Shown here piece by piece: positions 20,555 to 64,000 of a stretch of 64,000 nt of DNA; within the stretch, counting starts at the first letter, position 1; every line of letters begins with the position of its first letter. The notes under the pieces were generated by a model. The model did no database searches. It saw nothing but the letters and a program-made list of their open reading frames with translations, and was not told the origin of the DNA. The position numbers and the translations under genes are program-made. Source of the stretch: a virus; IMG/VR virus record IMGVR_UViG_3300027733_000028, positions 143,041-207,040 of that record; one strand, 5' to 3'.

Positions 20555-20788
20555 ATGCAATATTATATAGGCATATTACCAGAAGATCGAGGTCGACTTA
20601 GATCCACGATAGAGTTTTTAAATGACAATCCCAATTGGCGATGGCAGGTTAAAGTCTTATCAGAATTTGACGATCCTGATGGATATTATACATTCCAAAT
20701 GGAAGGGAATGAGGAGACTTATCGACACTTTCTTCGACTCTCTACTAACGAAGGATTTGTCAAATCTCTTAATCATTATGAAGAGTAG
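20555..20788 (+). CDS. Hypothetical soluble protein, 77 aa
   Basis: A mixed alpha/beta protein with FLNDNPNWRWQVKV and acidic ends; no motif. It overlaps the GIY-YIG gene by 11 bases, which supports both starts. Confidence 0.65.
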   Translation: MQYYIGILPEDRGRLRSTIEFLNDNPNWRWQVKVLSEFDDPDGYYTFQMEGNEETYRHFLRLSTNEGFVKSLNHYEE

Positions 20789-21035
20789 TTGGTTCGTTTA
20801 TATAGTTCGTTGCTCTGATGGAACTCTGTATACCGGAATCACCGTTGACCTTCAAAAACGAGTGGCCTCTCACAACTCCAAGAAAGGAGCTAAATATACT
20901 GCGACTCGAACTCCTGTCGAGTTAGTTTGGTCTCAACCTTCAGAAACGAGATCCACTGCCGCGAAAGAAGAGTGGAGAATAAAACAGCTTTCCCGTACAG
21001 AAAAACTCGCCTTAATAGATAATCTTATATTATAA
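20778..21035 (+). CDS. GIY-YIG nuclease domain protein (YhbQ/UvrC-N-like)
   Basis: The start MKSSW gives an 85-residue single domain: FVYIVRCSDGTLYTGIT (GIY-YIG strands), DLQKRVASHNSKKGAKYTATRTP with Arg for catalysis, and the late Glu in TAAKEEWRIKQLSR. That is the bacterial YhbQ-type arrangement. An upstream in-frame ATG lies within the previous gene. It may nick DNA in repair or act as a freestanding endonuclease. A second, more diverged GIY-YIG protein is at 38188. Confidence 0.85.
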   Translation: MKSSWFVYIVRCSDGTLYTGITVDLQKRVASHNSKKGAKYTATRTPVELVWSQPSETRSTAAKEEWRIKQLSRTEKLALIDNLIL

Positions 21036-21123
21036 TAATCTAGTACAGATCACTCCCTTGCAAGTAGAGTAAATAAAAAGTTTGCTCACTCTAAACACAC
21101 TCTTCTAATATAATCTACTACAT

Positions 21124-21191
21124 CTTATATAGGATAAACCGCTTTATATAGAAGGTAATACGCTATATAAGGTAATAATCTATATAGATAA
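21124..21191. repeat. AT-rich degenerate TATATA repeat block
   Basis: Four spaced variants: CTTATATAGGATAA, TTTATATAGAAGGTAATA, CTATATAAGGTAATA and CTATATAGATAAC. Two further cousins, CTTATATAGTGATAA and CTTATATAAGGAAT, flank the last part of the gene-free region. Spacing is about 17-20 bases, like weak iterons. Confidence 0.5.
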
Positions 21192-21216
21192 CTCTCCTCC
21201 TCGTCTGACTAGTCGT

Positions 21217-21288
21217 GGTGTTGTGAGCGGAGAAATCCGGTAAGCCACGGAGGAAGCCGGTATTTGCAGATCCGCTTATAGTGACACC
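21217..21288. ncRNA. Nested stem-loop, candidate structured RNA
   Basis: Three collinear pairings: GGTGT (21217-21221) with ACACC (21284-21288); AGCGGA (21226-21231) with TCCGCT (21271-21276); and inner AAATCCGG with CCGGTATTT with one bulge. The strand is uncertain. The order of pairings is hard to get by chance, but no RNA family is recognised. Confidence 0.45.
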
Positions 21289-21328
21289 TTTTGTTTTCCG
21301 CATTCTCACAAAGATTTGCCGCATATAC

Positions 21329-21393
21329 CAACGAGCCGTTAAGTACCGAGGAATCCATAATCGTAATGGCTCTCAATCACCCAGGGCTCGTTG
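21329..21393. repeat. 9-bp perfect inverted repeat with inner hairpin
   Basis: CAACGAGCC (21329-21337) pairs with GGCTCGTTG (21385-21393); inside, CCAT and ATGG make a small hairpin with a 7-base loop. It may be the second domain of the structured RNA suggested just upstream, or a protein-binding site. Confidence 0.5.
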
Positions 21394-21478
21394 CTAACTC
21401 CCATCACCAAAGCTACTCCGTCCACAACCCGCCTACCCTTATATAGTGATAATTGGATCCGGTGGTAATTCCGCCTTA

Positions 21479-21490
21479 CCTTATATAAGG
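21479..21490. repeat. 12-bp palindrome CCTTATATAAGG
   Basis: A perfect palindrome 28 bases before the next promoter's upstream box, with a GGTAA/TTACC hairpin just before it. It could be an operator for the following promoter. Confidence 0.45.
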
Positions 21491-21517
21491 AATATTGAAT
21501 CCAGTAGCGATTAAGAT

Positions 21518-21572
21518 GTTAATAACTTTCTCACAAAACATTTTTTTATTACAACCTTTTTTATTATATTTG
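21518..21572 (+). promoter_or_regulatory. Recurrent bipartite phage promoter
   Basis: GTTAATAACTTT, a T-run and a perfect TATATTTG, with 47 bases between box starts. The ATG of the next gene is 34 bases after the -7 box start. Confidence 0.87.
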
Positions 21573-21598
21573 TATATACATAATAACTAATACACTAT

Positions 21599-21877
21599 AT
21601 GGAAGAACAAGAAGATTTTAATCAGGAACTCGATCCTGTACAAAAGGCCGAGTTAGAATTACAATATCAAGAAGAAATAGGAAAGGCCATGAGAAGTGCA
21701 TTTGCTTATATAGAGGAAGATCTAGGCTGGGAGGCTTGGATCGAGAATCGAGTGATTGGTGACGCGGCCAAGAAGCGGAGAATCCTCGATAATATGATGA
21801 AATGGTTTGCTTCTCCAGAGGTGGAGGAATATGAGAAATCCGCTCGCATCAAAAGGGCTATTGATACTCTCGTATAG
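21599..21877 (+). CDS. Hypothetical acidic helical protein, 92 aa
   Basis: Glu-rich and almost all helix, with a Trp-containing centre (DLGWEAWIENRVIG). It forms a one-gene unit between two recurrent promoters. Acidic early phage proteins of this size often bind host regulators or mimic DNA, but no specific match is seen. Confidence 0.75.
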   Translation: MEEQEDFNQELDPVQKAELELQYQEEIGKAMRSAFAYIEEDLGWEAWIENRVIGDAAKKRRILDNMMKWFASPEVEEYEKSARIKRAIDTLV

Positions 21878-21880
21878 GTT

Positions 21881-21957
21881 GTTAATAACTTTGTTAATAA
21901 GTTTTGAAACAAATAGTAAAATAAATTTTTTTATTCCACAAATAAGTATTATATTTA
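21881..21957 (+). promoter_or_regulatory. Recurrent promoter, long-spacer variant with doubled upstream box
   Basis: GTTAATAACTTT is followed 12 bases on by a second GTTAATAAGTTT; the T-run/ATTCC part and TATATTTA keep their usual positions. The first box is 69 bases from the -7 box, 22 more than the standard 47. Confidence 0.8.
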
Positions 21958-21989
21958 TATATTATTTAATTAACTTAAAAAAGATCTAT

Positions 21990-22244
21990 ATGCAAATCAA
22001 TCAAATTAAAACCGGTTCCTTTATTCGTAACAGCGGTGGATTTACCTTCCACGTAACACTTACCGAGAAGTTCGCTCACCTTCACCCTATCGATGATAAC
22101 ACATCTACCTCAACGAAGGTACTACCTATAGCGGTATTCAATCAGTTAATTCGTAATCACAACTTCGTTACCGTTACCAATCCCAATAACGCACACGAAA
22201 GAATTCTTACTAAATCATATGGATCAAGATTATTAACACAATAA
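21990..22244 (+). CDS. Hypothetical protein, 84 aa
   Basis: I chose the ATG after the promoter; a longer frame runs back through the promoter and the previous gene and is not credible. The protein is Thr/Asn-rich and beta-like (GGFTFHVTLTEKFAHLHP). It ends directly at the next promoter, so it is a single-gene unit. Confidence 0.75.
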   Translation: MQINQIKTGSFIRNSGGFTFHVTLTEKFAHLHPIDDNTSTSTKVLPIAVFNQLIRNHNFVTVTNPNNAHERILTKSYGSRLLTQ

Positions 22245-22245
22245 T

Positions 22246-22300
22246 GTTAATAACTTTCCCATCAAACATTTTTTTATACCAAAAAAAAGTATTATATTTA
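22246..22300 (+). promoter_or_regulatory. Recurrent bipartite phage promoter
   Basis: GTTAATAACTTT, T-run with ATACC, and TATATTTA, 47 bases between box starts. The following leader is long (48 bases from -7 box start to ATG) and A-rich. Confidence 0.85.
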
Positions 22301-22340
22301 TACTATATTTAAAAATCAAATAAAACAAAAAAAATCAATT

Positions 22341-22658
22341 ATGGCAAAATCATCTAGAGGCGGATTAACAGTTTACGATAAACAAGATGTGGTAATATCA
22401 CAATTCGCAAAAATCGTACGTAACGAACAATACAGAAAAGAACCAACATGGTTCGAACAACAGGTAATCGATTCTAAACAACGTACTGCGGATTATCAAA
22501 AACGTATGGTGAACAACCCACCTCAACCCCGTATCTCACACTATAATCCAGACAATATCTTAAATCGCACCAGACACTTATCTGCGGAAGATCGTAAAAT
22601 CGCAATCAAACAATTTCTTAAAGAAGAAAAGGCTGCTAATAATTTAATCAATCAGTAA
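22341..22658 (+). CDS. Hypothetical basic protein, 105 aa
   Basis: Rich in Arg, Lys, Gln and Asn, soluble and helical, with little hydrophobic core in the middle. It could bind nucleic acid. First gene behind a recurrent promoter. Confidence 0.72.
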   Translation: MAKSSRGGLTVYDKQDVVISQFAKIVRNEQYRKEPTWFEQQVIDSKQRTADYQKRMVNNPPQPRISHYNPDNILNRTRHLSAEDRKIAIKQFLKEEKAANNLINQ

Positions 22659-23064: not shown

Positions 23065-24153
23065 ATGACAATATCTCAAAAGCAATTTAGTGACTTCCGA
23101 GAAGACGCACTAAAAAATCAACCACTCCGCAAGGAAATCGCACTAGCCGATATTCGTTTCGTCACTATGGATGCAATCGAATATGCCGGTTTAAACTTTG
23201 GACTTGCTCGTCCTGCACTTAAAGATCTAATGCGTATATTAGGTGTAAACATGAATATCGAATCTCGCTTATCTGAATCTATCGGTGAGGATGGTGCGAG
23301 GAACTTCCTTAATGGTCTAAGATCTGCACTATCTAAATCAGCCGGATCTATTATCTTATCGGTTACACCAGATCGCATCATTCAACGTATCACTAAAGGT
23401 GGAAAAGAAACTTCACTCTTTACTGCACCTACCTACTTCAATACAGTAGATCGCTTTATGAATACCAACTCCGGTATGGAAATAAAGGATATGCACTTCA
23501 ATCGCGAAACAGGTGGAATATCGCTCTCTGCGGCTTCACCCAAATCAGAATTTAACGTGGGTAACTTTAACGATGAGGTTTTCCATGGAGGATTAAATCT
23601 CTCTATCACTGCCGATGGAATTAAAGCCGCTCCTTATCTACACCGTCTAGTGTGTACGAACGGAATGGTAACACGTTCTTTCGAGGAATCCTTTAATCTT
23701 AATCGCAACACCACTGAAAGTTGGACTTCCTTCTGGCAGAATCTAGAAAGAATCGAACACTCTGGATTTCAACCCATCGCCTTTACCAACAAGGTACTCG
23801 CTGCGAAAAACACTACTGCTTCTTTCGCTGAGATGGAAAGATCAATGAACCTCATCCTAGGTAATTCAAAATGTGATCTAGACAATCTACCCCAATTCAT
23901 CAATTACCGTCCGACCTTCAATCGTCTACACTCTACAGGAATCGATACCCTGAAGTTAACACCAGGACAGAAACGCAATCTACGTACTGGCTTAACCATG
24001 TGGGATTGCATTAATGGAGTTACCGATTTTGCCTCACACAATTATGGTTTTGAAAAAACAGCTAACTGTGATCGCCACTTACAGTTACAAGCTGGTGATA
24101 TCCTCACTAAGGACTTCGACACACAAAACCTAATCCTGAATCAACCTTACTAA
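23065..24153 (+). CDS. DUF932-like phage protein
   Basis: 362 residues. Several segments recall DUF932/YfjQ proteins of phages and plasmids: HGGLNLSITADG, RLVCTNGMVTRSF in the middle, and MWDCINGVTDFASHNYG near the end, with FNVGNF and long helices between. No enzymatic motif is seen. Such proteins are often highly expressed early, function unknown. It is followed by a terminator. Confidence 0.55.
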   Translation: MTISQKQFSDFREDALKNQPLRKEIALADIRFVTMDAIEYAGLNFGLARPALKDLMRILGVNMNIESRLSESIGEDGARNFLNGLRSALSKSAGSIILSVTPDRIIQRITKGGKETSLFTAPTYFNTVDRFMNTNSGMEIKDMHFNRETGGISLSAASPKSEFNVGNFNDEVFHGGLNLSITADGIKAAPYLHRLVCTNGMVTRSFEESFNLNRNTTESWTSFWQNLERIEHSGFQPIAFTNKVLAAKNTTASFAEMERSMNLILGNSKCDLDNLPQFINYRPTFNRLHSTGIDTLKLTPGQKRNLRTGLTMWDCINGVTDFASHNYGFEKTANCDRHLQLQAGDILTKDFDTQNLILNQPY

Positions 24154-24198
24154 GAGTAAGGAACTGCGAGTGGAGAAAACCACTCTAATTTGATAATA

Positions 24199-24234
24199 CC
24201 ACTAAGGCTGCTCACTAGAGTGGCCTTTTTGTGG
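24199..24234 (+). terminator. Terminator-like hairpin with U-run
   Basis: Nested arms CCAC/GTGG and AAGGC/GCCTT with a small inner CAC-TAGA-GTG hairpin and five Ts within the right arm. A second hairpin, GAGTGG-AGAAAA-CCACTC, stands at 24168-24185. Together they probably end the DUF932-like transcript. Confidence 0.6.
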
Positions 24235-24270
24235 TTTACACAGCGAGACTGCCCTATTACTCACCTTTAC

Positions 24271-24556
24271 CACCTAGAAGAGACTAGATACCTTCTAGTC
24301 TCACCTAATAAGGGCCTGTACAGATCTAGACCAGCAAAACAACATCCTACTAGATCTAGATCTTAACAAGAAGAGCCTAGATAGACTAGATGAGTACTAG
24401 CAGTGTACTAGTAGGATCTATTAAGGCTAGAAGCAGACTAGAAGAGCTCAATATATCCACATATAGGACAGAAGAGTGCTATAAAGACTCATATATACTC
24501 ATTATATCACCGATAGATCATCTAGAAGCCGCTGAGGTGAGCTATAGGGACTAGAA
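24271..24556. repeat. CTAG-dense block with hairpins
   Basis: About 14 CTAG tetramers in 286 bases, where one or two would be expected. Perfect hairpins include GAGACTAG/CTAGTCTC (24280-24302) and TACTAG/CTAGTA (24395-24413), both with 7-base loops, plus the 12-bp palindrome AGATCTAGATCT (24352-24363). No reading frame fits. Confidence 0.7.
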
Positions 24557-25159
24557 AGTCAAAAAAAGGTCACAAAAAGCCAAAAAGGATCACTTTTAGC
24601 CAAAAAGGATCAAAAAGGCCACATGTGCTCCTCGTAATCCATGTCTTGTCCGCGTTAACGTCCCGTGGAAGTCCAGTCCTGGCTAGGGCCCATGAAATTC
24701 CGGACATTTTTGACCCTCGAAACTTTGGGCCGGAAATAAGGCGACGCACATCCCACTCTATACGGAAAGCCCTTTCTGGTAACGCGAGTAAGAGAAGCCC
24801 AAAGGCCTTTTTAAAAAAATTTTCCAGACTATATAGGATCTCTCGAAACTCATTGACTAATATATAGAGTAGCCGGTGAGTCTTTTTAAACCTTTCTGAC
24901 TCTTTGTTTTGCTCGAAGGAGAAGGTACTGACAGAGTGAAGACGGCTACTTTGTTTACAGTAATCTGTTAATAGTAAACTCTTACCCGACGCAAACGACG
25001 AGGGGCCATCCAGACTTCTCTGATGGTTTATTTCGCATCCCTCTTTTATACTCTCGGTATAAATTCGAGACCTCGATTGAACTGCCGATACCGCGACTCG
25101 CATCTGATAACCACGATAAATAAACCATATACTCGATCTTACCGGCGAATCGTGTAAGT
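24557..25159. other. Gene-free stretch, G+C-richer, with a short tandem repeat
   Basis: It opens with a 20-base tandem repeat (AGCCAAAAAGGATCA at 24578 and 24598, then a partial third copy). Beyond that I see no promoter and no credible gene; open frames on both strands here have poor composition and no support. With the CTAG block this makes about a kilobase without genes in an otherwise packed genome, perhaps a replication origin or RNA gene. Confidence 0.5.
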
Positions 25160-25167
25160 CATATAAA
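25160..25167 (+). promoter_or_regulatory. Candidate late-type promoter, CATATAAA
   Basis: CATATAAAAA, 15 bases before the next ATG, at the right edge of the gene-free kilobase where a new transcript must start. Confidence 0.35.
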
Positions 25168-25174
25168 AACTAAT

Positions 25175-25501: not shown

Positions 25502-25511
25502 AAAAAAAAAG

Positions 25512-25609
25512 CCCTCCAGCGTTCAAACTCTGAGTTTCAGGAATAAATAGAAATATAAACGAACAAAAAAGCGCGCAGCGGCTTCCACCTCTGAGTACCA
25601 AGAATAAAT
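25512..25609 (+). repeat. Imperfect direct repeat before the capsid-targeting island
   Basis: Two related ~40-base units, both with CAGCG, then CTCTGAGT and GAATAAAT (25528-25548 and 25589-25609), period 61 bases. The second copy runs into the ATG at 25608. The ATAAAT part of the first resembles the late-type element, so the repeat may hold the island's promoter. Confidence 0.5.
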
Positions 25610-25985
25610 GAAATCAATACCTACATATCACGAATTCCTTAATGAGACCGTCTCATTTAATACCGATACTACTGGTCGTGAAGATTGGGATGATGATCTA
25701 AAGAAACATTCTAGAGATTTTACTCAATCTATAGTAATAATGAGTCCGATGGATTTCTTGAAGAGAGTTCAATATCACCGATTTGAGATTAATAAATCTA
25801 AAGTGGCTAATTATGTTAAAGAATTTCGTGGTAATGTCAAAGGAATTCCAGCACCAACCATGTGGTTCTCTGATAAGTTTCAATACGATAAAGGACTTGC
25901 TCCTGCTTTTCATGATGGATCTCATCGCATGCTAGCTCTACAAGAAGTAGGGATACGAGAAGTTCCGGTTAAAATTATATACTAA
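25608..25985 (+). CDS. Capsid-targeted protein with ParB/Srx-like motif
   Basis: Residues 1-13 (MKSIPTYHEFLNE) match the shared capsid-targeting-like peptide, with predicted cleavage after LNE. The C-terminal part ends AFHDGSHRMLALQEVG...VPVKI, similar to the DGxHR...GxxxVPV box of ParB N-terminal/sulfiredoxin-fold proteins, which in the wider family includes nucleotide-binding and DNA-nicking enzymes. The activity is open. First of nine proteins with this N-terminus. Confidence 0.65.
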   Translation: MKSIPTYHEFLNETVSFNTDTTGREDWDDDLKKHSRDFTQSIVIMSPMDFLKRVQYHRFEINKSKVANYVKEFRGNVKGIPAPTMWFSDKFQYDKGLAPAFHDGSHRMLALQEVGIREVPVKIIY

Positions 25986-61367: not shown

Positions 61368-64000
61368 TTAGATGTTGTTTTTCATCTGCGATTCTAGATT
61401 TTCTACTTTGGCGGTTAATTCTTTAATTGCCTCTATTAATACCGCAACCATATTTTGATAGGCTACTGCATAAGTTCCATCATTTTTTTGATAAACTACT
61501 TCTGGAATTATGGTCATAACCTCTTGAGCAATAACACCCATGAAACGATCACTTGATTCAGAATCAATACGTTCATAAGTTACACCTCTCAAGGAATTTA
61601 CTTTATTTAAGGCCTCTATTATAGTTTCTACATTAGTTTTAACTCTTGCATCCGAGAATGCAATAATATCATTACTTGCATAAATAGAAACGTTTGCATT
61701 AGCACCAACTACCTCTATTGGGTAATTAGGCGCAGGAGTTCCAACTCCCAGATAATTATTGGTATAATCAAATACTAAATTAGGATTAGCATCGAAAGCT
61801 CCAGTATTATTATAAATCACTTGAGTATTAGTTCCAGGAACAGTTCCAGATCCAGCAGATCCTTGAATTCCTTGGAATCCTTGATTTCCACTACCTTGAT
61901 TACCTTGGAATCCAAATCCTTGGAATCCTTGGAATCCTTGAGATCCTTTAGCTCCTTGATCTCCTTTAGTTCCTTGTGGTCCTTGAAATCCTTGTACTCC
62001 TGAAGTTCCGGATATACCGTTTAGACCAGTAGCACCTTGGAATCCTTGATCTCCTTTAGCACCTTGATCGCCTTTGGTACCTTGTATACCCTGGAATCCT
62101 TGGAATCCTTGTGAACCCTTAGCTCCTTGATCTCCCTTGGTTCCTTGAATACCTTGGAATCCTTGATCGCCTTTAGCACCTTGGTCACCCTTAGCACCTT
62201 GATCTCCTTTGGTACCTTGGATTCCCTGGAAACCTTGATCTCCTTTAGTACCCTGAATACCTTGAAATCCTTGATTACCGATAGTTCCTTGAATACCTTG
62301 GAAACCTTGATTACCAAAGGTTCCTTGTATACCTTGGAATCCTTGATCTCCTTTAGCACCTTGATCGCCTTTGGTACCTTGTATACCCTGGAATCCTTGG
62401 AATCCTTGATTACCTTTATCTCCTTGATCGCCTTTAGCACCTTGTATTCCTTGAAATCCTTGATCTCCTTTGGTACCTTGAATACCTTGGAATCCTTGAT
62501 CTCCTTTAGCGCCTTGGTCACCTTTAGCTCCTTGATCTCCTTTGGTTCCTTGTATACCTTGGAATCCTTGATCTCCTTTAGCACCTTGATCTCCTTTAGT
62601 ACCCTGTATTCCTTGGAAACCTTGATTACCTTTATCTCCTTGATTACCTTGAAAACCTTGATTACCAATAGTTCCTTGAATACCTTGAAAACCTTGATTA
62701 CCAATAGTTCCTTGAATACCTTGGAATCCTTGGAAACCTTGATCTCCTTTAGCTCCTTGATCTCCTTTAGCACCTTGGTCACCTTTGGTTCCTTGTATAC
62801 CTTGAAAACCTTGATTACCGATGGTTCCTTGATCTCCTTTAGCACCTTGATTACCGATAGTTCCTTGAATTCCTTGAAAACCTTGATTACCTTGGGAACC
62901 ATCTATACCAGCAATACCGAAAGTACCTTGGAATCCTTGATCTCCTTGTAATCCTTGTGAACCTTGTGTACCAACGGTACCTTGTCTACCTTGGAATCCT
63001 TGTGTACCAACAGTTCCTTGTCTACCTTGAAAACCTTGTGTACCAACAGTACCTTGAATTCCTTGGAATCCTTGATCTCCTTTAGAACCCTGTATACCTT
63101 GGAATCCTTGATCTCCTTTGGTCCCTTGTATACCTTGGAATCCTTGATCTCCTTTGGTTCCTTGAATTCCTTGAAAACCTTGATCTCCTTTAGCACCTTG
63201 ATCTCCTTTAGCACCTTGATCTCCTTTGGTTCCTTGAATTCCTTGAAAACCTTGATCTCCCTTAGAACCCTGAATACCTTGGAATCCTTGATCGCCTTTG
63301 GTTCCTTGAATTCCTTGAAAACCTTGATCTCCCTTAGAACCCTGAATACCTTGGAATCCTTGATCGCCTTTGGTTCCTTGAATTCCTTGAAAACCTTGAT
63401 CTCCCTTAGAACCCTGAATACCTTGGAATCCTTGATCGCCTTTGGTTCCTTGAATTCCTTGAAAACCTTGATTACCAATAGTTCCTTGAATTCCATAAGG
63501 TCCTTGAAAACCTTGTACACCAGAAGTTCCGGATATACCGTTTAGGCCGGTAGCTCCTTGGAATCCTTGATCGCCTTTATCACCTTGGTTACCGATAGTT
63601 CCTTGTATACCTTGGAATCCCTGAGAACCTTTAGCTCCTTGATCTCCTTTAGTTCCTTGAATACCCTGAAACCCTTGATCTCCTTTAGCACCTTGATCGC
63701 CTTTAGCACCTTGGAATCCTTGATCTCCTTTGGTTCCTTGAATTCCTTGAAAACCTTGATCTCCTTTAGAACCTTGAATACCTTGAAAACCTTGATTACC
63801 AACAGTACCTTGAATTCCTTGAAATCCTTGATCTCCTTTAGAACCCTGAATACCTTGAAAACCTTGATCTCCTTTGGTTCCTTGTATTCCTTGGAATCCT
63901 TGGTCACCTTTAGCACCTTGGAATCCTTGATCTCCTTTGGTTCCTTGAATTCCTTGAAAACCTTGATCTCCTTTAGAACCTTGAATTCCTTGAAATCCTT
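61368..64000 (-). CDS. Collagen-like tail fibre with S74 chaperone domain (5' end off window)
   Basis: The frame is open to the window edge with no start, so at least 877 residues. From 64000 to about 61860 it is nearly unbroken Gly-X-Y, about 230 triplets with recurrent GDQGFQG, GIQGTKG and GAKGDQG, a collagen-like trimeric rod; a GATGLNGISGTSG segment occurs twice. The C-terminal ~150 residues are a trimerising S74 intramolecular chaperone: FSDARVKTNVETI with its autocleavage Ser, VTYERID, RFMGVIAQEV and a closing coiled coil. The Met at 61820 is only a GTG codon inside the gene, not the true start. Confidence 0.88.
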   Translation of the reverse strand, partial: GFQGIQGSKGDQGFQGIQGTKGDQGFQGAKGDQGFQGIQGTKGDQGFQGIQGSKGDQGFQGIQGTVGNQGFQGIQGSKGDQGFQGIQGTKGDQGFQGAKGDQGAKGDQGFQGIQGTKGDQGAKGSQGFQGIQGTIGNQGDKGDQGFQGATGLNGISGTSGVQGFQGPYGIQGTIGNQGFQGIQGTKGDQGFQGIQGSKGDQGFQGIQGTKGDQGFQGIQGSKGDQGFQGIQGTKGDQGFQGIQGSKGDQGFQGIQGTKGDQGAKGDQGAKGDQGFQGIQGTKGDQGFQGIQGTKGDQGFQGIQGSKGDQGFQGIQGTVGTQGFQGRQGTVGTQGFQGRQGTVGTQGSQGLQGDQGFQGTFGIAGIDGSQGNQGFQGIQGTIGNQGAKGDQGTIGNQGFQGIQGTKGDQGAKGDQGAKGDQGFQGFQGIQGTIGNQGFQGIQGTIGNQGFQGNQGDKGNQGFQGIQGTKGDQGAKGDQGFQGIQGTKGDQGAKGDQGAKGDQGFQGIQGTKGDQGFQGIQGAKGDQGDKGNQGFQGFQGIQGTKGDQGAKGDQGFQGIQGTFGNQGFQGIQGTIGNQGFQGIQGTKGDQGFQGIQGTKGDQGAKGDQGAKGDQGFQGIQGTKGDQGAKGSQGFQGFQGIQGTKGDQGAKGDQGFQGATGLNGISGTSGVQGFQGPQGTKGDQGAKGSQGFQGFQGFGFQGNQGSGNQGFQGIQGSAGSGTVPGTNTQVIYNNTGAFDANPNLVFDYTNNYLGVGTPAPNYPIEVVGANANVSIYASNDIIAFSDARVKTNVETIIEALNKVNSLRGVTYERIDSESSDRFMGVIAQEVMTIIPEVVYQKNDGTYAVAYQNMVAVLIEAIKELTAKVENLESQMKNNI

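Follow-up and report, generated by a model that had tools for sequence, protein, structure and literature searches.

A non-coding element with same-direction TATATA repeats in a T4-type jumbo phage and its possible functions

In phage T4, the origin oriE carries evenly spaced 12-nt iterons that are also found in related phages; the origin depends on an early promoter, and the iterons have no proven role (PMC3016281). The defining feature of the large phage RNAs GOLLD and ROOL is an extensive, covarying secondary structure, and tRNA islands are often found close to them (PMC12286853). The element described here lies in a 563-bp gap (21036-21598) of the window, the 64-kb stretch of DNA analyzed, which corresponds to bases 143041-207040 of a 207-kb viral record. 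Like T4 oriE, it belongs to a T4-type phage and contains short, identically oriented direct repeats clustered between small genes close to an early promoter. In both cases a related phage has the cluster at the corresponding position, and its function is unproven. It differs from oriE in the sequence and spacing of the repeats, which here form two groups flanking a GC-richer spacer, and whereas oriE is marked by a strand switch or skew change, the element shows no such shift. With plasmid iteron origins it shares same-direction AT-rich repeats beside a stretch of low stability, but the repeats are unevenly spaced and no initiator gene was recognized nearby. As with GOLLD and ROOL, hundreds of non-coding bases are conserved between phages (PMC12286853); unlike those RNAs, the element showed no covariation against its diverged relative and no Rfam match, and the tRNAs are 27 kb away.

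Genomic setting and conservation

The phage is a T4-type jumbo phage. It encodes a T4-type portal (Pfam PF07230, E 5e-71) as well as a T4-like major head protein, a tail sheath, a topoisomerase and SbcC. The named phages nearest to it by portal are either phages of Bacteroidota or megaphages (Lak, PTm1, PAU and metagenomic phages), and its hosts are probably Bacteroidota. Only three non-coding gaps of comparable length were counted in the 207-kb record, including the one at 21036-21598, once 88842 is read as a coding region with a non-ATG start and 1-931 as a cut gene. The gap is preceded by a GIY-YIG nuclease gene (20779..21035, plus strand; Pfam PF01541, E 2.4e-18), for which the listed open reading frame, 20622-21035, overlaps the preceding gene, so that the start is likely near 20779. 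It is followed by a plus-strand gene of unassigned function (21599..21877) encoding a 92-aa protein that is predicted to be all-helical and gave no match in a fold search. The first-pass description of the region as non-coding and unusual, with directional AT-rich repeats, was borne out. No gene was found in 21036-21598, mismatches against the relative fell 22/16/15 on the three codon positions, without bias, and a protein-coding gene was rejected in all six frames, there being no long frame with a start common to both phages.

Identical copies of the element were found in IMG/VR contigs 3300009158_000031 and 3300009159_005817. The sole diverged copy found was in IMG/VR 3300013005_000022, where it lies between a GIY-YIG gene, 82% identical to that of the window and separated from the element by an extra small gene, and the 92-aa gene, which is also 82% identical. 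BLAST, a sequence model and nhmmer over the portal relatives, and several exact IMG/VR patterns all returned the same two lineages only, and 16-mers scanned against bacterial genomes matched at chance level only. Two more distant phages, G008 and G009, carry the 92-aa gene (38% and 32% identity) without a detectable element; the syntenic gap of G008 contains two TATATA sequences, with no detectable homology to the element. A further 48 records, linked to this phage through the portal or a neighboring gene and including two of >240 kb, lack the element, which therefore does not represent a core function of the group. This patchy distribution argues that neither an origin nor a control function at this site would be essential for the group.

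The conserved element spans 21091..21499, where a global alignment of 409 nt was gap-free with 76.5% identity to the relative. Since BLAST with its own gap costs gave a gapped alignment over a larger region, "gapless" is best read as equal distances between all conserved blocks in both phages. Fourfold-degenerate sites in the neighboring genes were about 53% identical (53/100 pooled). Genome-wide, the two phages were 71% identical at third positions and 84% in non-coding DNA, so the conservation of the element stands out only against the locally diverged sequence around it and is not exceptional in absolute terms. Within this comparison of two distinct sequences, uninterrupted identity over 12 bases or longer occurred nine times against 3.8 expected (p 0.0005), with no 10.5-bp period in the conservation. 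Such block conservation resembles that of binding sites.

The blocks include CCTCGTCTGACTAG (21199..21212), identical in the relative, and the 21 identical bases of AACTCCCATCACCAAAGCTAC (21396..21416), the first 20 of which, used as a pattern against viral contigs, matched only this element and its relative. Two direct copies of CGGAG-N3-(T/G)CCGG lie 20 bp apart at 21228..21260 (CGGAGAAATCCGG at 21228 and CGGAGGAAGCCGG at 21248), their frames retained in the relative and their inner bases changed. Toward the 3' end, the plus-strand block CCGCCTACCCTTATATAGTGATA (21429..21451) falls within an imperfect 42-bp tandem repeat (21429-21470/21471-21512). Upstream, the plus-strand block TAATAGATAATCTTATATTATAATAATCTAGTAC (21013..21046) overlaps the end of the GIY-YIG gene and is kept although the gene upstream of it differs in the relative.

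A second large non-coding stretch, the island at 24154-25174, follows a DUF932-like gene (23065-24153; Pfam E no better than 0.05-0.08) and occupies the same position in G008 and G009. Its upstream half is CTAG-rich. In its core, GCGTTAAnGnCnCG-N26-ATGnnATTCCnG, exactly 26 bases separate the blocks in all three lineages; covariation among these lineages was not found (z 1.0 to -1.3), and the pattern occurred in no other lineage of IMG/VR. The island also contains a CyVA-1-like RNA in a phage genome (24870-24948; RF02965, 37.3 bits, just below the gathering threshold of 41.4, E 2.2e-6), which has the conserved CGAAGGAGAA loop and is enclosed by an 11-bp outer stem. Two further repeat regions were noted in the window: an imperfect 61-bp tandem duplication at 25502-25614, in which the duplicated sequence is the A-rich, CAGCG-containing leader of the gene at 25608, and repeats of 9/18/36 bases (CCTTGGAATCC and similar) at 61859-64000, which run to the record end and are collagen-like if read on the minus strand.

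TATATA repeats and the adjacent promoter

The element contains six same-direction repeats of the type TATATA-(0-4)-GRTAA, four plus two, most sharing TATATA followed by GRTAA. Several TTATATA(A/G)GG repeats had been proposed; the same-direction TATATA cores do exist, but only two copies on the plus strand are exact, the others being variants. The cores start at 21126, 21145, 21164, 21181, 21440 and 21482, with spacings of 19, 19, 17, 259 and 42, and so lack the even spacing of oriE. All lie on the plus strand. Repeats a (TATATAGGATAA, 21126..21137) and b (TATATAGAAGGTAATA, 21145..21160) are identical in the relative, which has TATATATTGTAATA for repeat c (TATATAAGGTAATA, 21164..21177), TATATAGGTAA for repeat d (TATATAGATAA, 21181..21191) and TATATAGCGGTAA for repeat f (TATATAAGGAATA, 21482..21494). 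Repeat e (TATATA at 21440) is part of block CCGCCTACCCTTATATAGTGATA, and repeats e and f occupy the first and second copies of the 42-bp tandem repeat, respectively. By itself, the density of TATATA (4 in 100 bp) is borderline, with shuffles reaching 2-5. The composite motif TATATA-N1-4-GRTAA had only five plus-strand matches in the 207 kb, 4/5 of them in the element. The repeat block is among the least stable 0.5-0.9% of duplex windows, with many promoters less stable still.

The single 12-bp palindrome of the first-pass annotation is real but proved to be two, ATCTATATAGAT at 21178 and CCTTATATAAGG at 21479. Repeat d lies inside the first (21178-21189), the outer bases of which are lost in the relative, and repeat f inside the second (21479-21490). 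Because the TATATA cores survive in the relative while the palindromes and long inverted pairings that they would form in RNA are broken, direction and core are the conserved feature.

The 3' border of the element is formed by an early-type phage promoter of the 92-aa gene (21517..21572, plus strand; TGTTAATAACTTT ... TATATTTG). The long form of this promoter, TGTTAATAACTTT-N9-ATTTTTTTATTCCACAAA-...-TATTATATTTG, has 21 copies in the record, all on the plus strand, including those at 21517, about 21880 and about 22245 in the window and 18 others; G009 carries the same motif (stretch L124 around 2806, minus strand). Its terminal TATTATATTTG fits the Bacteroidota promoter consensus, TAnnTTTG. A late promoter, TCATATAAWTAATAAA, was derived de novo from 74 upstream regions, where it stands about 25-30 nt before start codons; it is similar to the T4 late promoter. 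The late motif is present in most intergenic gaps of the record. The TATATA repeats match neither promoter class of the phage and therefore look like binding sites for another protein. Tandem late promoters were rejected: scored with this motif model, all six repeats stay below 3 bits. One marginal late-promoter-like site (5.4 bits) was found at 21025, within the 5' block 21013..21046.

A possible alternative is an upstream operator or enhancer array, through which a regulator would tune the 92-aa gene and the small genes that follow by acting on the promoter at 21517-21572. The element ends about 20 bp before this promoter, the genes at 21599-22658 carry early promoters of their own at about 21880 and 22245, and in both element-bearing phages the 92-aa gene lies directly or almost directly next to the element. 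This is nevertheless a tentative reading, given that an operator with invariant spacing over 409 bp would be long for a phage, that the 20 other copies of the early promoter have no such repeats, and that the 92-aa gene occurs without the element in G008 and G009.

Folding and covariation

The nested stems that had been read from the single sequence are present, namely GGTGT at 21217 with ACACC at 21284 and AGCGGA at 21226 with TCCGCT at 21271, as is the 9-bp long-range stem CAACGAGCC (21329)/GGCTCGTTG (21385), but all are broken in the relative; the stem AAATCCGG/CCGGTATTT is likewise present, with a bulge, but is not conserved there as a long stem. The pairs lost were 4/9 in CAACGAGCC/GGCTCGTTG, 3/6 in AGCGGA/TCCGCT and 2/5 in GGTGT/ACACC, and every long stem named was disrupted in 3300013005_000022. 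The core, 21190-21430, folded no better than its shuffles (z -1.05, 24/200). For the whole gap, z was -2.65, with the outer helices built from the self-complementary TATATA repeats. RNAalifold on the two-sequence alignment gave z -1.4 on the plus strand and +0.6 on the minus strand, with a structure conservation index of 0.49, and joint folding of the elements of both phages gave z of about -1.4 to -1.8. Pairs of the minimum-energy structure were retained in the relative no more often than expected. Compensatory changes, which had been suggested as a check, numbered 1 against 2.6 expected in the comparison with the one diverged relative.

As a positive control, four pairs of Bacteroidota RNase P RNAs of 69-76% identity were treated in the same way. 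They gave z of -9 to -12, an index of 0.65-0.79, and 11-17 compensatory changes versus 3-6 expected. Since these controls pass, the covariation test is sensitive enough for sequences as long and as diverged as these. Set against them, the weak joint fold and the single compensatory change make a conventionally base-paired RNA very unlikely, and a folded RNA on either strand was rejected as a conventional structure by the two-genome fold and covariation tests. An Rfam scan of the element at the gathering threshold and at E<=10 gave no credible match. The "stable RNA-like part" of the first-pass annotation thus finds no support in Rfam or in covariation against the diverged relative, in clear contrast with the RNase P controls.

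A non-coding RNA of another kind, with little internal pairing or mainly tertiary or pseudoknotted structure, might act through its sequence as an antisense, sponge or protein-bound RNA. The invariant spacing, the blocky conservation and the whole-gap z of -2.65 would suit it, as would a few helices of 7-9 pairs that remain compatible in both phages through one-sided changes, for example 21221-21227/21305-21311, 21238-21244/21315-21321 and 21258-21266/21340-21348. These three helices, however, cross each other, and the element has neither a terminator nor, at its 5' end, a dedicated promoter of either class save the marginal site at 21025. Matches to an antisense target within the phage genome were of chance length only. 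With the Rfam result, the compensatory count below expectation and a joint z reaching -1.8 versus -9 to -12 in RNase P, such an RNA is unlikely. An accessory or mobile insertion (e.g., GIY-YIG linked) or a decayed remnant, of no function for the phage, is improbable: the distribution is patchy, and nuclease gene and element co-occur in both element-bearing phages and are both missing from G008 and G009, but conservation is well above that of local fourfold sites, the spacing is fixed, another gene stands between nuclease and element in the relative, and there is no intron signature. A group I or II intron with the nuclease gene was rejected, as Rfam gave no match to an intron core structure.

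Elsewhere in the record, a TROVE/Ro60-like gene (record locus 65380-67402; Pfam E 2.4e-13) is preceded by a 433-nt non-coding gap that ends in a terminator-like hairpin. This gap folds well (z -3.1 for its 226-nt middle part) and is 92% conserved in the relative. TROVE proteins are known in jumbo phages (PMC7824862), and the 433-nt stretch is a candidate phage Y RNA encoded with its protein.

A putative protein-bound DNA element

The explanation preferred, although at less than even probability, is that the element acts in cis as DNA and is bound by a phage protein, most likely for the initiation of replication. A phage-encoded protein would attach to the TATATA-GRTAA repeats, which share one direction (four at a spacing of 17-19 bp and two at 42 bp), and the GC-richer 250 bp between the repeat groups, with its two CGG-N6-CCG sites, would join a single nucleoprotein complex whose dimensions are fixed. 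Such a complex would most likely serve to initiate DNA replication, as proposed for iteron origins, with the AT-rich repeat block opening next to the early promoter as at T4 oriE. The element would then be most like the unexplained T4 oriE iterons, and control of the early promoter is judged nearly as likely.

Favoring the preferred explanation are an identity of 76.5% versus about 53% at fourfold sites, the identical runs, the concentration of four of the five motif matches in the element, and the contrast with RNase P. Against it stand the absence from 48 records, the uneven spacing, the availability of two distinct sequences only, and the genome-wide non-coding identity of 84%. Neither GC skew nor transcription strand switches at the element, and no replication gene is near it, the DNA polymerase and helicase genes lying about 130 kb away in the record. 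Skew and duplex stability are uninformative. Because composition, strand switch and gene neighborhood lend an origin no support, both the origin and the control region are rated below even probability. The first-pass comparison with an origin primed by a transcript was reasonable as far as phage origins go, T4 oriE having iterons; its stable RNA-like component was not sustained. A more specific proposal, that T4-like jumbo phages have here a new iteron-type origin (or partition site) served by a novel initiator and possibly acting together with the island at 24154-25174, appears rather doubtful.

The RNA result is useful in its own right, since stems picked out by eye in a single sequence did not survive a comparison of two genomes, a test that a real RNA equal in size and divergence passed easily. 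The role of the T4 iterons is undefined in the review cited (PMC3016281), and a second, unrelated cluster with clear borders offers a compact test fragment. If the repeats are instead an operator array, they would chart how early genes are controlled in phages that have been little studied.
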